Virus record (IMG/VR): IMGVR_UViG_3300025407_000008
Location: 1 to 41,440 of that record
Source of the DNA: a virus
DNA length: 41,440 nt
Strand: one strand, 5' to 3'
The notes under the pieces were generated by a model, which was given only the letters and a program-made list of their open reading frames with translations, had not been told where the DNA came from and made no database searches. The translations under genes and the position numbers were made by a program. Shown piece by piece: positions 7,261 to 28,648 of the stretch; position 1 is the stretch's first letter, and every line of letters starts with the position of its first letter.

Positions 7261-7286
7261 AGCCCCGCCAAGTGCGGGGCTTTTTT
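7261..7286 (+). terminator. Rho-independent terminator
   Basis: AGCCCCGC (7261-7268) pairs with GCGGGGCT (7274-7281) across the 5-base loop CAAGT and is followed by a T run (7281-7286). It closes the fibre gene run. The next gene starts 26 bases later with its own strong ribosome site, so part of the transcription probably reads through or restarts. Confidence 0.9.
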
Positions 7287-11992: not shown

Positions 11993-12010
11993 AACTTAAT
12001 AGCAAACGTA

Positions 12011-12040
12011 GCCCCCACTTCGGTGGGGGTTATTTTTTTT
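12011..12040 (+). terminator. Rho-independent terminator with UUCG loop
   Basis: CCCCCAC (12012-12018) pairs with GTGGGGG (12023-12029) around a TTCG tetraloop, followed by TATTTTTTTT. This is a very stable hairpin and ends the late/lysis unit. A second small hairpin (AAGGC 12058-12062 with GCCTT 12068-12072) follows. Confidence 0.95.
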
Positions 12041-16781: not shown

Positions 16782-17142
16782 GGCGCAAAGTGTTGATGAC
16801 TATGAAACGTGGATACAGGGGGGGGTGGCACCTACTTTGAATGCTTTTGACAATGGTGATGTAAGGGCTACTGTTATTATATTTCATCCACATAGATCAG
16901 ATGGCGCAAGAATTCAAGGCAAAACAATGAATACTCTTACAAGTTTTATGGGAACAGGTGGTTTAAATACTTCAATGGTTGCAAATGATGTAGATGTACG
17001 TCGCCTTACCCCAGTTGAATGTGAAAGACTACAAGGCTTTCCTGATGGTTGGACTGACGAACAGGCAGATAGTCACCGCTATAAGCAAATGGGTAACGCT
17101 GTTACCGTCAACGTTGTTGAGTGGATTGGTAAGCGTTTGTGA
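16759..17142 (+). CDS. C5-cytosine DNA methyltransferase, motifs IX-X (second piece of split gene)
   Basis: A 127-residue protein with the end of the target-recognition region (QSVDDYETWIQGGVAPTLNA, TMNTLTSFMGTGG), motif IX RRLTPVECERLQGFPDGWT and motif X RYKQMGNAVTVNV. The TTG at 16759 has GGAG at 16748-16751, a good ribosome site, and lies 23 bases inside the first piece, so the two may be translated as coupled subunits. A G8 run at 16818-16825 lies in the coding part. If the split is not real, a single base change near 16775-16782 would restore one enzyme of about 427 residues. Confidence 0.8.
   Translation: MWFTKSRRAQSVDDYETWIQGGVAPTLNAFDNGDVRATVIIFHPHRSDGARIQGKTMNTLTSFMGTGGLNTSMVANDVDVRRLTPVECERLQGFPDGWTDEQADSHRYKQMGNAVTVNVVEWIGKRL
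16818..16825 (+). repeat. G8 homopolymer in the second methyltransferase piece
   Basis: Eight G bases encode Gly-Gly and run into a GTG (16825), an alternative in-frame start. The frame is coherent before and after the tract at its present length. Confidence 0.85.
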
Positions 17143-17711
17143 CAACTATAGCCGCCATTGAAGGCCCTGATTGGGTGATGATCGGAGCTGATTCTCAATC
17201 CTCTAGCGAGGATGGCTTTAGTATCAATATACCCAATGGCAAAGTATTTAAGAATAACAATCTTGTTTTTGCTATGGCTGGGTCAGTACGCGGCATCAAC
17301 ATTCTTGAGCATGACTTTGTACCACCACAAATCAATGGCAAGGACATAGATAAGTACATTACTAGGCAACTTATTCCAGCCATTCGTAAAGCTTTTTTAG
17401 ATGCAGGTTATGAATTTAGCAAGGCTGAGTCTGCGGTTGAGCATGACAACATTATTATTGTGGCAGTCAAAGGCAAACTTTATTGCATCAATGAGGACTA
17501 CTCATGGGAACGTAACGCCGACAATCTCTATGTAGCTGGCAGTGGTGAGAAGTTTGCTCTTGGTGCTATGACTGCTCTTGGCGGTGGCACACTTATTGAC
17601 GATGCAGTTAAGGCTCGCAAGATCATCACAAAAGCCTTACAAATCGCTAGTAAATACGACTCTTTTACCGGTGGCAAGATAACTGTTAACTTAATTCAGG
17701 AAGCCAAGTGA
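17139..17711 (+). CDS. Proteasome-like Ntn hydrolase (HslV/beta-subunit type)
   Basis: A 190-residue protein starting MTTIAAIEG. Removing Met exposes a Thr nucleophile; counting from it, Asp17 is in GADSQSS and a Lys at 34 is in NGKVFK, close to the T1/D17/K33 set of proteasome beta subunits. VFAMAGSVRG, IIIVAVKGKLYCIN and LYVAGSGEKFALGAM are further family marks. GTG 17139 overlaps the methyltransferase stop. Such genes occur in other actinophages with unknown targets. It could form its own protease ring or act with host proteins. No separate ATPase or alpha subunit is seen. Confidence 0.75.
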   Translation: MTTIAAIEGPDWVMIGADSQSSSEDGFSINIPNGKVFKNNNLVFAMAGSVRGINILEHDFVPPQINGKDIDKYITRQLIPAIRKAFLDAGYEFSKAESAVEHDNIIIVAVKGKLYCINEDYSWERNADNLYVAGSGEKFALGAMTALGGGTLIDDAVKARKIITKALQIASKYDSFTGGKITVNLIQEAK

Positions 17712-19011: not shown

Positions 19012-19481
19012 TGATTGAAATTAAAATGTCTCATGGCGACTTATCTTTTGCCACGATTGAAGCGGTTGCTCGCTTTAATTACAACAGAGCCAAAGGTAAT
19101 GATGCTACGCAAGGCCATGCTCCCACTTGGGTTGAGCAGGTAGCGCGTGAGATTAGTGGTTGCTTGGGTGAGATAGCGATTGCTAGATGGCAGGATAAAT
19201 ACCCATTTGCTTTATTTGAAGAGCGTAAGATGGGCGATGTTGGAGAGTTTGAAGTACGCACAACGGCTTACTCTAGCGGTAAATTACTCATCAACCATGA
19301 CGATGATCCATCCCGTAAGTACCTTTTGGTAACCTTACCTACGCACTATGTAGCTTGTATTCATGGCTGGATGTATGGCTATGAGGCGCAGACAGAGCAG
19401 TTCTACAACACTACTATGCGTGCGCCAGTCTTTGCTGTTCAACAAAAATACCTTAAGCCACCTGAGACTATCTATGGATAA
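19011..19481 (+). CDS. Hypothetical protein, possible restriction-endonuclease-like fold
   Basis: A 156-residue protein. GCLGEIAIARWQ (Glu), then GDVGEFEVRTTAYSSGKLLI with an Asp and a Glu-x-Arg, and a strand RKYLLVTLP, suggest the E...D...(E)xR layout of PD-(D/E)XK-type folds, but the Lys is replaced by Arg, so this is tentative. ATG 19011 overlaps the preceding TAA. The end overlaps the sigma-like gene by 8 bases. Similar phage proteins are annotated only as hypothetical. Confidence 0.55.
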   Translation: MIEIKMSHGDLSFATIEAVARFNYNRAKGNDATQGHAPTWVEQVAREISGCLGEIAIARWQDKYPFALFEERKMGDVGEFEVRTTAYSSGKLLINHDDDPSRKYLLVTLPTHYVACIHGWMYGYEAQTEQFYNTTMRAPVFAVQQKYLKPPETIYG

Positions 19482-20112
19482 CTGGGTAGAAGAAGCATCC
19501 GATATTGCGTCTCAAGTAGCACGCACTGTTCACCGCAAATATCACACATACTTTGACGTGTCTGATGTACGCCAAGAGTTAATGGTATGGATCTTGCGCC
19601 GTGATAAAAAAGTAAAGCAGTGGCTTAACCATGAACAGTCATCTGAAGAATACAAGGGTGGAATTAAGCAGCTTGGTAAGACACTATCCAGGCACGCTGA
19701 TCGTTATTGTCGCAAGCGCAAAGCGCAATCACTTGGATATTCTATTGAAGATGAGGCTTACTACTCACCTATTACTTTATCTGAATTACTTCCATTTGTA
19801 TGGGCTGATGTAGTTGAGACACGCGACGCTACCAAGCCACGCGTATCCGGTGGTGGTAACCCCGCTGAAGGTGGCAATTATGTTGTTCAATTGCTAGACA
19901 TTCGCAAGGCGTTAGCCAAGTTGGATGAGATGGATCGGGATGTATTACAGCTTAAGTTTGAGCATCAACTTACCTTTAGCCAGATAGCAGAGGAGTTGGA
20001 AGTCAGCGACACTACCGCACACCGCAAGGTGGATGGTGCTTTGCGTAGGCTTAACAACCATTTAGGTGGGCAGTCACCATTTACAGCAGAGGTGCCAGAA
20101 GATGACGTATGA
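19474..20112 (+). CDS. Sigma-70-like transcription factor
   Basis: A 212-residue protein. The N-terminal part (FDVSDVRQELMVWILRRDKK) looks like sigma region 2, and the end carries a clear region 4 helix-turn-helix: LDEMDRDVLQLKFEHQLTFS, QIAEELEVSDTTAHRKVDGA, then LRRLNNHL. A basic, Arg/Lys-rich middle joins them. The ATG at 19474 overlaps the previous stop. It could direct host RNA polymerase to late phage promoters. If so, it may work with the WhiB-like protein on the other strand, since host WhiB proteins bind the primary sigma factor. That link is inference. Confidence 0.75.
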   Translation: MDNWVEEASDIASQVARTVHRKYHTYFDVSDVRQELMVWILRRDKKVKQWLNHEQSSEEYKGGIKQLGKTLSRHADRYCRKRKAQSLGYSIEDEAYYSPITLSELLPFVWADVVETRDATKPRVSGGGNPAEGGNYVVQLLDIRKALAKLDEMDRDVLQLKFEHQLTFSQIAEELEVSDTTAHRKVDGALRRLNNHLGGQSPFTAEVPEDDV

Positions 20113-24716: not shown

Positions 24717-24741
24717 GCGGGATAAAACGACTTTATCCCGC
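24717..24741. other. 10-bp stem hairpin
   Basis: GCGGGATAAA (24717-24726) pairs perfectly with TTTATCCCGC (24732-24741) around ACGAC. No T run follows, so it is not a standard terminator. It could be a protein-binding dyad or a packaging-site element. Confidence 0.7.
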
Positions 24742-24742
24742 C

Positions 24743-24770
24743 TTAGTATATATAGGGATATAAATAATCT
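24743..24770 (+). promoter_or_regulatory. AT-rich stretch, probable late promoter
   Basis: TAGTAT (24744-24749) and TAATCT (24765-24770) both fit the TANNNT -10 pattern. No convincing -35 hexamer is present, which is compatible with a promoter that depends on an activator at 24691 or on the phage sigma-like factor. Everything from terminase onwards lies downstream. Confidence 0.4.
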
Positions 24771-24775
24771 ACACA

Positions 24776-24944
24776 GGTAACGTTCGGCTCACGGCAGGGT
24801 GAGCCTCAAGCGAACAATGCCGGTGAGACGAACTACGGTTTACCCAATGGCAGCCTCTACGGGCTGCCTTTAACCCATAGGGTTAGGCGCTGAAGGCGCC
24901 CCCTAAAGATAACCCAAGTGTTGCCCATAGGCAACGCTTCGCGG
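24776..24944 (+). ncRNA. Structured 5' leader of the terminase transcript with alternative folds
   Basis: Fold A is a long hairpin: GGTAA (24776-24780) with TTACC (24840-24844) outside, then GTTCGgCTCACGGCA (24782-24796) with TGCCgGTGAGaCGAAC (24818-24833). Fold B uses a second copy of the 3' arm in the loop: GGCTCAC (24786-24792) with GTGAGCC (24799-24805) and GTTCG with CGAAC (24811-24815). The folds exclude each other. Further hairpins are 24849-24868, 24871-24885 (its GGGTTA can instead pair with TAACCC at 24910-24915), 24886-24900 and 24920-24935. The ribosome site GGAG (24947-24950) follows. It could be a cis-regulatory RNA or a packaging site. Confidence 0.5.
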
Positions 24945-24960
24945 TAGGAGAAATAGGTTT

Positions 24961-26880
24961 ATGAGTAAACCAAAGTCTAATTCATACAAATTAGCCCCAG
25001 AGGCTAGCCTTTCGGCTCCAGAGGCAAAGAAGCGCCTTGTCGCGCTGATTGCCGATGGAGTGACTGTTGAGGATGCTTGCCGCGCAGTCGGCAAGTCTAT
25101 CAAGTCTTATGAGTACTATCGCTCTAGCGACCCACAGTTTAAAGAAGCTATTGATCTGTCTAGGGTCATTCAAAAGCGTAAAGGCGTCGTGGCTGATGAA
25201 GACGCCGAAATCTCGTTTGAGGATTTCCGTGCCAAGTATTTAATGAGCAAGACCTTCCCCCATCAACGCAACATTACCTCGTTGCTAGAAGAAGGGGAGC
25301 CTGCTTGGCTCCACGGCAACATGACCTACGAAAAGGGATTTCCTAATTACGTCTTGGTCAATATGCCGCCCGAGCACGCCAAGAGCATGACAGTCTCCAT
25401 TGACTACGTAACCTATCGGATTGTCACCAATCCCAATGTTCGTATCAAGCTCGTTTCAAAGACTCAGGCAATGGCTAAAGAATTTCTTTACGCCATCAAG
25501 CAAAGACTCACATCACCTCAATGGGCAGAACTTCAAAGGCGCTACGCGCCAGTAGAAGGCTTTAAGGCTACCGCTGAGAAGTGGACAGCCGACACGATCT
25601 ACCTAGAACGTGAATCAGGTGAAAAAGATCCTACCGTTCAAGCCCTTGGTATCGGTGGACAGATTTACGGCGCACGTGCCGATCTTATTATTTTGGATGA
25701 CTGCGTCACCCTTGCCAACGCTGGTGAGTATGAAAAGCAGATCCGCTGGATTCAACAGGAAGTACTGACTCGTGTCGGTCCTACTGGAAAGATTCTCGTT
25801 GTCGGTACTCGCGTAGATCCAATGGATCTTTACCGCGAAATGCGCAACCCTGAGCGTTACCCAGACAACGTCAGCCCTTGGACATACTTGGCTATGCCAG
25901 CAGTCTTAGAATTTAAAGATGATCCAAAAGACTGGATTACCCTCTGGCCTAAGTCAGATCGTCCTTGGGATACTGATACTACCCCAGCAGATAACGATGG
26001 ACTTTACCCGCGCTGGAATGGATCGCATCTTCGCCGCCGTCGCGGATTGATTGACCCAAAGACGTGGGCGATGGTTTATCAGCAGCAAGATGTTGAGTCT
26101 ACTGCCATCTTCTCACCTGAGTGTGTACGCGGTTCTGTCAGCGGTATGCGTGCTATTGGTCCTCTGATTCCTGGTGCGCCAGGTCATCCTGATAATCTCA
26201 ATAGCCAATACATAGTCGCTGCTATGGATCCAGCCATGTCCGGTGACACCTTCTCTGTCATTATCTCAGGAGATAGAACCACAGGCAAGCGTTACTTGCT
26301 AGAGGCATCACGGATGCCAGCACCTACGCCTCAACAGATTCGCGACCTAATCTTTAGTTGGACTGAGAAGTACAATCCAAAGGTCTGGGTTATTGAGAAG
26401 AATGCTTTCCAGCTATTCTTAACTCAAGACGAAAAGATCAACTCATTTTTAGCAACACGCGGCATTCGCCTCGTGCAGCATTACACAGGCGCCAACAAAA
26501 TGGATCTTGAATTTGGCGTAGCCTCTATGGCACCACTATTCGGCTCGTGCGACAACCAGGGCAAATACATGAAGAATAACCTTCTGGAATTGCCACGGGC
26601 CGACAACGAACATATCAAAGCACTGATTGAGCAATTGATTACTTGGTCAGCAGGAACGAAGAATAAGCAAGATGGTCCAATGGCCCTCTGGTTTGCTGAG
26701 ACACAGATGCGTGACTACATCAATCAGGCTGGTGCATATGGTGGATCGTTTGTAAAGAATCCATATGCTACTCGCCATCAGTTGGCTTCACGCAGAGTAG
26801 TAAACCTAGAAGAATACTCACAACTTCAAGAAAAGTTAGCAAGCAACGGGGGATACCTAAGTGGCAATAGAAATTGGTGA
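24961..26880 (+). CDS. Terminase large subunit with N-terminal helix-turn-helix
   Basis: A 639-residue packaging motor. After about 15 residues comes a small-terminase-like helix-turn-helix (LVALIADGVTVEDACRAVGK, then SIKSYEYYRSSDPQF). The ATPase follows: a Walker-A-like PPEHAKS (136-142), Walker B DLIILDD (241-247) and a coupling TR at 283-284 (VGTRVD). The RNase-H-like nuclease begins at AAMDPAMSGDT (Asp423). No separate small subunit was found, so the fused domain may recognise DNA. The start is ATG 24961 with GGAG upstream. It overlaps the portal gene by 20 bases. Confidence 0.9.
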   Translation: MSKPKSNSYKLAPEASLSAPEAKKRLVALIADGVTVEDACRAVGKSIKSYEYYRSSDPQFKEAIDLSRVIQKRKGVVADEDAEISFEDFRAKYLMSKTFPHQRNITSLLEEGEPAWLHGNMTYEKGFPNYVLVNMPPEHAKSMTVSIDYVTYRIVTNPNVRIKLVSKTQAMAKEFLYAIKQRLTSPQWAELQRRYAPVEGFKATAEKWTADTIYLERESGEKDPTVQALGIGGQIYGARADLIILDDCVTLANAGEYEKQIRWIQQEVLTRVGPTGKILVVGTRVDPMDLYREMRNPERYPDNVSPWTYLAMPAVLEFKDDPKDWITLWPKSDRPWDTDTTPADNDGLYPRWNGSHLRRRRGLIDPKTWAMVYQQQDVESTAIFSPECVRGSVSGMRAIGPLIPGAPGHPDNLNSQYIVAAMDPAMSGDTFSVIISGDRTTGKRYLLEASRMPAPTPQQIRDLIFSWTEKYNPKVWVIEKNAFQLFLTQDEKINSFLATRGIRLVQHYTGANKMDLEFGVASMAPLFGSCDNQGKYMKNNLLELPRADNEHIKALIEQLITWSAGTKNKQDGPMALWFAETQMRDYINQAGAYGGSFVKNPYATRHQLASRRVVNLEEYSQLQEKLASNGGYLSGNRNW

Positions 26881-28648
26881 ACTAAGCACCAAGGTTCGCA
26901 AGTTACGCGACCATTACCATTCACGCGATTCGCGCTGGGCTGATCTTCTTGCTATTCGTCAAGGAGACATTCAGCAAGTATTTCCAGGACAATTCCCTGA
27001 AGAATTTCCTAAGCCTATGGTGGCTAACTTCATTGATATTGCCGCACGCGATGTAGCAGAAGTTATTGCTCCGCTTCCAGCATTCAACTGCGATACAACA
27101 GACGCTATCTCAGATCGTGCTAGAAAGAAAGCCGATAAACGCACCATGATTGCCGCTGGCTATCGTGATACTGCAAACCTTCAGACTTTGATGTACACAG
27201 GTGCTGACCGTTACCTTACCTATGGAATGCTAGCATTTATCGTTGAGCCTGATTATGAGAATAATCGCCCAATGATTCGTATTGATAACCCAATCGGAAC
27301 ATACCCAGAGTATGATCGTTTTGGTAAGTTAATCTCATACACACGTCGCTACAAGAAGACTGTCCGTGAGTTGGTCAATGACTATCCTGAGTATGAGTCA
27401 GTCATCAAAGGACCTTACGAGACTCGTAACTCAGAGCGTATCCTTGAAGTCTATCGCTATCAGGACAAAGAAGAACTAGTTCTATTCATCCCTGAGCGTA
27501 ACAACTTTATCCTAGATCGTGCTAAAAATGTCATTGGCGAATTGCCTATTGTCATCGCTACTCGTCCTGGTATTGACTCTGACGAGAATCAACGCGGACA
27601 ATTTGATGATATTATGTGGCTACAAGTAGCCCGTGCTAGATTTGCTACACTTCAATTGGAAGCAGCACAGAAATCTGTACAGGCTCCGTTTGCTTTGCCT
27701 TCTGATGTGAATGTACTTGAGATTGGTCCAGATGCAACTATCCGCTCTGCCAATCCTGAAAAGATTCGCCGTGTTGGTCTTGAGATTCCACCAGGAATAT
27801 TTCAAGAGACAGCACAACTAGATCAAGAACTACGCGTTGGCGCACGTTACCCACAAGGTCGTCTAGGACAGCAATCAGGTTCTATCGTTACAGGCCGTGG
27901 TGTAGAAGCACTCATGGGTGGCTTTGATACTCAAGTTAAAACTGCTCAAGCAGTATTTGCTGAAGTATTTCGCCACGTTATGCGCATCTGTTTCATGATG
28001 GATGAAAAACTTTTTGGTGATGTTGAGAAGGAAGTACGCGGTGTAAATGCCGGTGCGCCTTATGAAATTACATACACACCTAAGAAAGATATTCAAGGCG
28101 ATTACTGGTGTGACGTATCTTACGGCATGATGGCTGGACTAGATCCAAACCGTGCTTTGGTATTTGGATTGCAAGCTCGTGGAGATAAGTTAATCTCACG
28201 CGATTTCTTGCGTCGTCAAATGCCTTGGGAAATGAACGTAACCCAAGAAGAAGAAAAGGTTGAAGTAGAAGCACTACGCGATTCGCTTATGGCGGCAGTT
28301 GGTGCTTACGCAAATGCTATTCCTTCACTTGCAGCGCAGGGACAAGACCCTTCAAAGGCAATCAATGCAATTGCCGCAGCGATTAAGGGTCGTCAAGCAG
28401 GAGATAACATTGAAGATGTTATTGCCGCTGCTTTCGCACCTGCACCACAACCAAAATCCCCAGAAGTCGCAGCCGCTGGTGCGGCGCCTCAAGGCGCCCC
28501 AGGACAGGCTCCTGCTGGGGTACCTATGCCGCAAGGCGCACCACAAGGTGGCGCGCAACCATCTGCCCTGCAAAATCTATTAGCAGGACTTTCATCTTCT
28601 GGCGCACCGCAGTTATCTGCCAATGTTGCTAGAAGGCAACCAGTCTAG
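26861..28648 (+). CDS. Portal protein
   Basis: A 595-residue protein with a GTG start within the terminase gene. It has the features of actinophage portals: an N-terminal helical part (LRDHYHSRDSRWADLLAIRQ), a central domain with ADRYLTYGMLAFIVEPDYEN and RIDNPIGTYPEYDRFGKLIS, and the crown-side helix after QSGSIVTGRGVEALMGG. The last 90 residues are Ala/Pro/Gln/Gly-rich and disordered. Portals form the dodecameric DNA gate of the capsid, and position directly after terminase fits. A hairpin spans the stop codon. Confidence 0.85.
   Translation: MAIEIGELSTKVRKLRDHYHSRDSRWADLLAIRQGDIQQVFPGQFPEEFPKPMVANFIDIAARDVAEVIAPLPAFNCDTTDAISDRARKKADKRTMIAAGYRDTANLQTLMYTGADRYLTYGMLAFIVEPDYENNRPMIRIDNPIGTYPEYDRFGKLISYTRRYKKTVRELVNDYPEYESVIKGPYETRNSERILEVYRYQDKEELVLFIPERNNFILDRAKNVIGELPIVIATRPGIDSDENQRGQFDDIMWLQVARARFATLQLEAAQKSVQAPFALPSDVNVLEIGPDATIRSANPEKIRRVGLEIPPGIFQETAQLDQELRVGARYPQGRLGQQSGSIVTGRGVEALMGGFDTQVKTAQAVFAEVFRHVMRICFMMDEKLFGDVEKEVRGVNAGAPYEITYTPKKDIQGDYWCDVSYGMMAGLDPNRALVFGLQARGDKLISRDFLRRQMPWEMNVTQEEEKVEVEALRDSLMAAVGAYANAIPSLAAQGQDPSKAINAIAAAIKGRQAGDNIEDVIAAAFAPAPQPKSPEVAAAGAAPQGAPGQAPAGVPMPQGAPQGGAQPSALQNLLAGLSSSGAPQLSANVARRQPV

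Follow-up and report, generated by a model that had tools for sequence, protein, structure and literature searches.

The 41,440-nt stretch of DNA analysed here, called the window below, is a circular virus record, the first 127 bases of which recur at its end. Its rightward genes run from terL, the gene for the terminase large subunit, onward round the circle to ~20.1 kb, a set of short leftward genes lies at ~20.6-23.6 kb, and a noncoding stretch of ~0.9 kb is found directly upstream of terL, which is the first gene after the leader described below (Table 1). The encoded TerL is of the T7/phrog_38 type, and its residues 13-64 (24961-25152) resemble the terminase small subunit family phrog_4044 (E 0.00035), which suggests that a small-subunit-like domain has been fused at the N-terminus. 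The window also encodes a portal and a major head protein, and a proteasome/HslV-like protein at 17139-17711. The closest cultured relatives, with TerL proteins 49% identical, are Planktophila phages, and because these infect Planktophila an actinobacterial host is likely. Two of them, E7 and F5, are in culture and encode a phage sigma-70 factor (PMC10202952).

The leader is headed by a late promoter motif that is conserved in ~100 viral contigs and is common to phages down to ~50% TerL identity. Among 69 distinct stretches that carry the motif, terL lies 209-312 nt downstream of it in 66, the other three being one truncated stretch and two apparently unrelated ones. Transcription would start at the G run of the promoter, at ~24755. 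The window has a candidate recogniser of this promoter in its own sigma-70-family protein, relatives of which are encoded in 18 of 24 related records (the remaining records are partial), and we infer that this phage sigma reads the late promoter, which is probably sigma-specific. The inverted repeat over the upstream half of the promoter is a possible operator for a dimeric regulator; distant relatives carry a CGGGAAAT..ATTTCCCG inverted repeat at the same site, and in others the right half is missing.

Table 1. Positions of the leader elements, their internal parts and the associated genes in the window
Feature	Positions	Strand	Remarks
Perfect 10-bp inverted repeat, GCGGGATAAA/TTTATCCCGC	24717-24741	.	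Overlaps upstream half of promoter
Late promoter motif, CCTTAGTATATATAGGG	24741-24757	+	Sole copy in window
A-rich linker, inferred start to hairpin	24758-24781	+	Length nearly constant among relatives
Conserved hairpin HP1	24782-24833	+	Covariation; model R1 score 67.6 bits
HP1 P1	24782-24786/24829-24833	+	GTTCG/CGAAC
HP1 P2	24788-24792/24823-24827	+	CTCAC/GTGAG in window; CTC../..GAG across relatives
HP1 P3	24793-24796/24818-24821	+	GGCA/TGCC
HP1 upper stem	24799-24800/24814-24815	+	Part of HP1
HP1 apical module, GA-GC-CUCAA-GC-GA, 'type 1' allele	24801-24813	+	Alignments
Competing hairpin S1, GGCTCAC/GTGAGCC	24786-24792/24799-24805	+	Complementarity real; unsupported as conserved fold
Hairpin H2, GGCAGCC..GGCTGCC	24849-24870	+	Sequence not conserved
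Hairpin region H3, AACCC/GGGTT/AACCC triple	24871-24915	+	Window sequence
Hairpin H5, then GCTTCGCGGTAGGAG and ribosome-binding site	24912-24951	+	Second conserved module
terL, terminase large subunit	24961-26880	+	phrog_38, E 4.6e-72
Phage sigma-70-family protein, candidate late-promoter recogniser	19363-20112	+	Pfam Sigma70_r4, TIGR02937

Positions 24776-24944 fold at a predicted -75 kcal/mol, against a mean of -55 kcal/mol for shuffled sequences (z -4.98; none of 200 dinucleotide shuffles was as low), and rank second in stability among the loci of the window when both strands are scanned in 180-nt steps. The most strongly folding locus, 28441-28620, lies inside the 3'-terminal part of the portal gene and is rich in GGCGC/GCGCC repeats. 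Within the leader, the long hairpin HP1 has a predicted occupancy of 0.93-0.98 (37 C and 20 C). The first-pass annotation had paired 24782-24796 with 24818-24833, allowing for one mismatch and one bulge, and its coordinates and complementarity were correct, the mismatch being a G·A and the bulged base a G; the G·A, which separates P1 from P2, recurs in the hairpin of ~50 relatives.

The covariation test that had been proposed for these arms gave clear compensatory changes. In a sequence-only MAFFT alignment, which misplaces some type 1 tops, ten of the 20 HP1 pairs vary on both sides and the covariation score was reached by none of 500 shuffles. A model-fitted alignment yielded 11 two-sided pairs and a score of 0.142; shuffled sequences gave 0.087, and sliding the arms against each other gave no more than 0.084. 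In a hand alignment 15 pairs show two-sided changes. In the leaders L064 and L066 (relatives are given L numbers throughout), for example, CCGAACG/CGTTCGG replaces CCGTTCG/CGAACGG, and the upper pairs alternate between T-A and C-G among relatives. On the evidence of these alignments the arms of HP1 are under compensatory selection as one fold, and the leader is very probably a conserved RNA with a single fold. The non-standard cells of the hand alignment are mostly plus-strand G·A (96 of 147), and because mismatches that are mainly G·A would be C·U on the opposite strand, a plus-strand RNA fits. Model R1 scores the plus strand far higher than the minus strand, and the counts of G-U and A-C cells, 12 versus 13, do not discriminate between them.

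HP1 does not occur in every relative. It is absent from the L258 group (79% TerL identity) and the L238 group (50%), though both retain the promoter and have leaders rich in hairpins, and model R1 finds no match in leaders of types 4 and 5, in the distant clade described below, in Immanuel3 or in F5. The likeness of types 4 and 5 to HP1 is based on hand inspection. In L078 a second GAGTGAGCCTATGCC..GAGGCGAACGG stretch (233-330) follows immediately after the hairpin and is perhaps a duplicated element.

The top of HP1 combines, in the window, a tandem G·A with two GC pairs and a pentaloop, and across ~50 relatives it consists of stacked GA/GA and GC/GC with the loop CUCAA or CUCACA. In the type 2 top and in many leaders of the distant clade CGAG pairs with CGAG, in likeness to the tandem sheared G·A duplex motif (CGAG/CGAG), which is a building block and not a functional family. 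Between the window and L004 the core of the hairpin diverges by 22%, the flanks by only 5-9% and the compared part of terL by 7%. On the TerL tree, types 1 and 2 switch eight times, at least five of these being forced by well-supported branches; read from this tree, the phages have swapped these two allelic tops among themselves no fewer than five times. No protein family stood out as tracking the type 1 and type 2 tops in 17 partly complete genomes when TerL distance was allowed for, and no partner protein for the hairpin was found in this allele-tracking search.

A clade at ~50% TerL identity has the same promoter layout, followed in a comparable place by a different hairpin of GA/GA design with a CCUA(A) loop, the likeness of which to HP1 is based on hand inspection and shuffle tests. 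A pattern that was defined after inspection finds the GA/GA hairpin in 38 or more of the 52 leaders of this clade, and a strict pattern matches 8 of the 52, compared with 0.48 in shuffles, no coding windows and four reversed leaders. The arms fit their own partners in 20 of 30 cases, whereas arms dealt anew did so in a mean of 9.1 and a maximum of 15. Here the distance between the inferred start and the loop is 53-56, 64-66 or 78 nt, and that between the loop and the ATG 104-346 nt.

Downstream of HP1 the leader has a second conserved module, a hairpin with GCTTCGC(A/G)GT near the ribosome site, which is found in 47 of 69 leaders, that of the window included. A small ORF within H2 (ATGGCAGCC..TAA) was considered and dropped, being present only in close kin.

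At gathering scores, Rfam gave no match in the window or in the leaders of 19 relatives, and this bears out the earlier description of a structured terminase leader of no known class; permissive Rfam matches in the window were snoRNA noise only. A DNA search of 50,697 phage records returned no match, and a search with the core pattern through 84,980 bacterial and archaeal genomes returned a single one, in a terL-bearing phage contig within a metagenome bin labelled as a beta proteobacterium. A search of the literature gave no report of such a leader. The phi29-type packaging RNA was rejected as an identity for the element on the grounds of the T7/phrog_38 type of TerL and the lack of an Rfam match. 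The HP1 leader is a real and uncatalogued conserved RNA, filed under no known family.

The position of the hairpin bears on how it might act. The promoter motif and the hairpin are 35-39 nt apart in most leaders, with outliers at 31, 47 and 52 nt, and the inferred start and the loop 47-52 nt apart (41-44 nt in a subset), while the distance from the hairpin to the ATG of terL is variable, at 115-216 nt. Going by these distances, the hairpin is anchored to the promoter and not to the start codon. Because the promoter distance is constant and the gene distance variable, we infer that HP1 acts in cis during transcription or at the 5' end of the transcript, and not on ribosome binding.

The best explanation overall, to which we give about even odds of being right, is that HP1 is a cis-acting leader RNA of the late, terminase-first transcript, with a put-like action on the polymerase as its most likely mode. 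HP1 would form in the nascent transcript behind the phage-specific late promoter, and the transcription complex, via the polymerase, a host elongation factor or the phage sigma, would recognise the G·A top of the folded hairpin; as with put of HK022, late transcription would become more processive as a result. This put-like mechanism, drawn by analogy, is put forward tentatively and taken by itself is less likely than not. The putL RNA is ~70 nt long, is situated immediately downstream of its promoter and needs no phage protein to act on the polymerase (PMC9378689), and the window element shares with putL and putR the character of a structured RNA of ~60-70 nt that lies close behind a phage promoter and opens a long operon (PMC9378689). 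The HK022 put elements, however, have two stem-loops and belong to early operons of phages of Enterobacteria, whereas the window element has one hairpin with G·A modules and belongs to the late promoter of phages that probably infect actinobacteria; the likeness is one of place and size only. Two adjacent stem-loops of the put type were not found in the window leader, in which H2 is not conserved and Rfam gives no match. A need for antitermination is unsupported, because the strong intrinsic terminators of the late strand lie only ~23 kb downstream, at 7261-7281, and further on, at 12008-12033.

The lambda late leader (the 6S RNA of pR', with Q/qut) is a structured leader of ~200 nt that reaches from the late promoter to the first late gene, and is thus similar to the window leader in length and place. 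The window leader differs in having no tR'-like terminator, no Q-like gene was identified, and the sigma is phage-encoded. The late leaders of Planktophila phages E7 and F5 are a further comparison, with the related TerL and phage sigma-70 factor already mentioned, but upstream of terL in F5 the promoter motif was not seen on inspection and the hairpin model had no match. These cultured phages make a test in a relative possible. Few structured leaders that head phage operons are known, mostly from Enterobacteria, and here lake phages of a broad group share a conserved hairpin tied to a late promoter. Should the put-like reading be true, HP1 would be, to our knowledge, the first such polymerase-acting element in actinobacterial phages. 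A broader proposal, that of a new family of promoter-anchored nascent RNAs in actinobacterial phages which act in a put-like way via a stacked G·A top, with exchangeable tops and with members in two clades whose terminases are 50% identical, is doubtful as a whole.

Other roles for the hairpin have to be weighed against action on the polymerase. HP1 could be bound by an RNA-binding protein, of the phage or of the host, that controls the translation or stability of the late mRNA, for example in autoregulation by a late protein. The conserved G·A top and loop sequence do suggest recognition, and allelic tops that are repeatedly exchanged would suit allele-specific binding, but the hairpin, at a variable 115-216 nt from the start codon, cannot directly mask the ribosome site and no gene family follows the allele type, so that we consider this role possible though unlikely. 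Every leader is strongly folded, including those without HP1, and in some a GGGG..CCCC hairpin stands at the presumed 5' end, as would be expected if a generic hairpin-rich 5' region shielded an abundant late mRNA from nucleases or Rho and the exact hairpin were of minor importance. Such a shield is rather unlikely given that in distant pairs the conservation of HP1 exceeds that of its flanks (in the window versus L030, 85% in the core, 26% upstream and 55% downstream) and that in the window ~24 A-rich and mostly unpaired bases precede it, which places it too far in for sealing of the 5' end.

The first-pass annotation had favoured two mutually exclusive folds, with HP1 exchanging for S1 as in a riboswitch or attenuator, and this we now regard as quite improbable. 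The competitor copy, GTGAG..CGAAC, is indeed present in the loop at 24799-24815 and its competition for the 5' arm is physically possible, but it is not a conserved alternative: the predicted equilibrium occupancy of S1 is ~0.000 in the window (37 C and 20 C) and small in most kin, and S1 is predicted above the long hairpin only in L010, L013, L014 and L204. Five inner pairs of S1 are nearly invariant, two outer pairs fail to form in roughly half the sequences and no clear compensatory change was found among relatives; because the inner pairs are invariant and the outer ones fail, the S1 core is neither supported nor excluded and its extension is not kept. S1 is lost in type 5 leaders and in part of the distant clade, and the inner GTTCG/CGAAC alternative is broken in L064 and L066 through the compensatory changes of the outer arm. 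Nor is there an expression platform, as no intrinsic terminator was found on the plus strand of the leader and the ribosome-binding site is unpaired in the predicted fold, and the two-state switch was rejected on these grounds. S1-like complementarity does occur with other letters, as GCTCGC/GCGAGC in the L028 group and GGCCTC/GAGGCC in part of the distant clade, and because it recurs in this way S1 may still play a transient part during folding. Two further elements of the switch proposal exist in the window but fade among relatives: the GGTAA/TTACC extension of the long hairpin is not kept beyond the closest kin, and TAACCC (24871-24876), GGGTTA (24880-24885) and TAACCC (24910-24915) do not form a conserved choice, since both sides of the AACCC/GGGTT/AACCC triple are equally kept in close kin and are gone further out.

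A cos or pac signal for packaging or cutting of DNA beside terL, the main alternative of the first-pass annotation, is very improbable: the site does lie upstream of terL, and the linear record of the related Streptomyces phage Immanuel3 starts 678 nt before terL, but compensatory changes and asymmetric G·A mismatches fit a single-stranded RNA of the plus strand, the element is anchored to the promoter, and the contig ends of relatives, among which physical DNA ends were sought, are scattered over more than 1 kb with no common sequence and no clustering in the leader.

Ribozymes of another kind were seen near terL in some of the relatives. The Rfam scan found no hammerhead ribozyme in the window; type II hammerheads above the Rfam gathering score are present in three distant relatives, L354 (166-226), L355 (459-519) and L361 (376-436), all on the minus strand, opposite to terL and ~1 kb upstream of it, with the core CUGACGA and GAAA.
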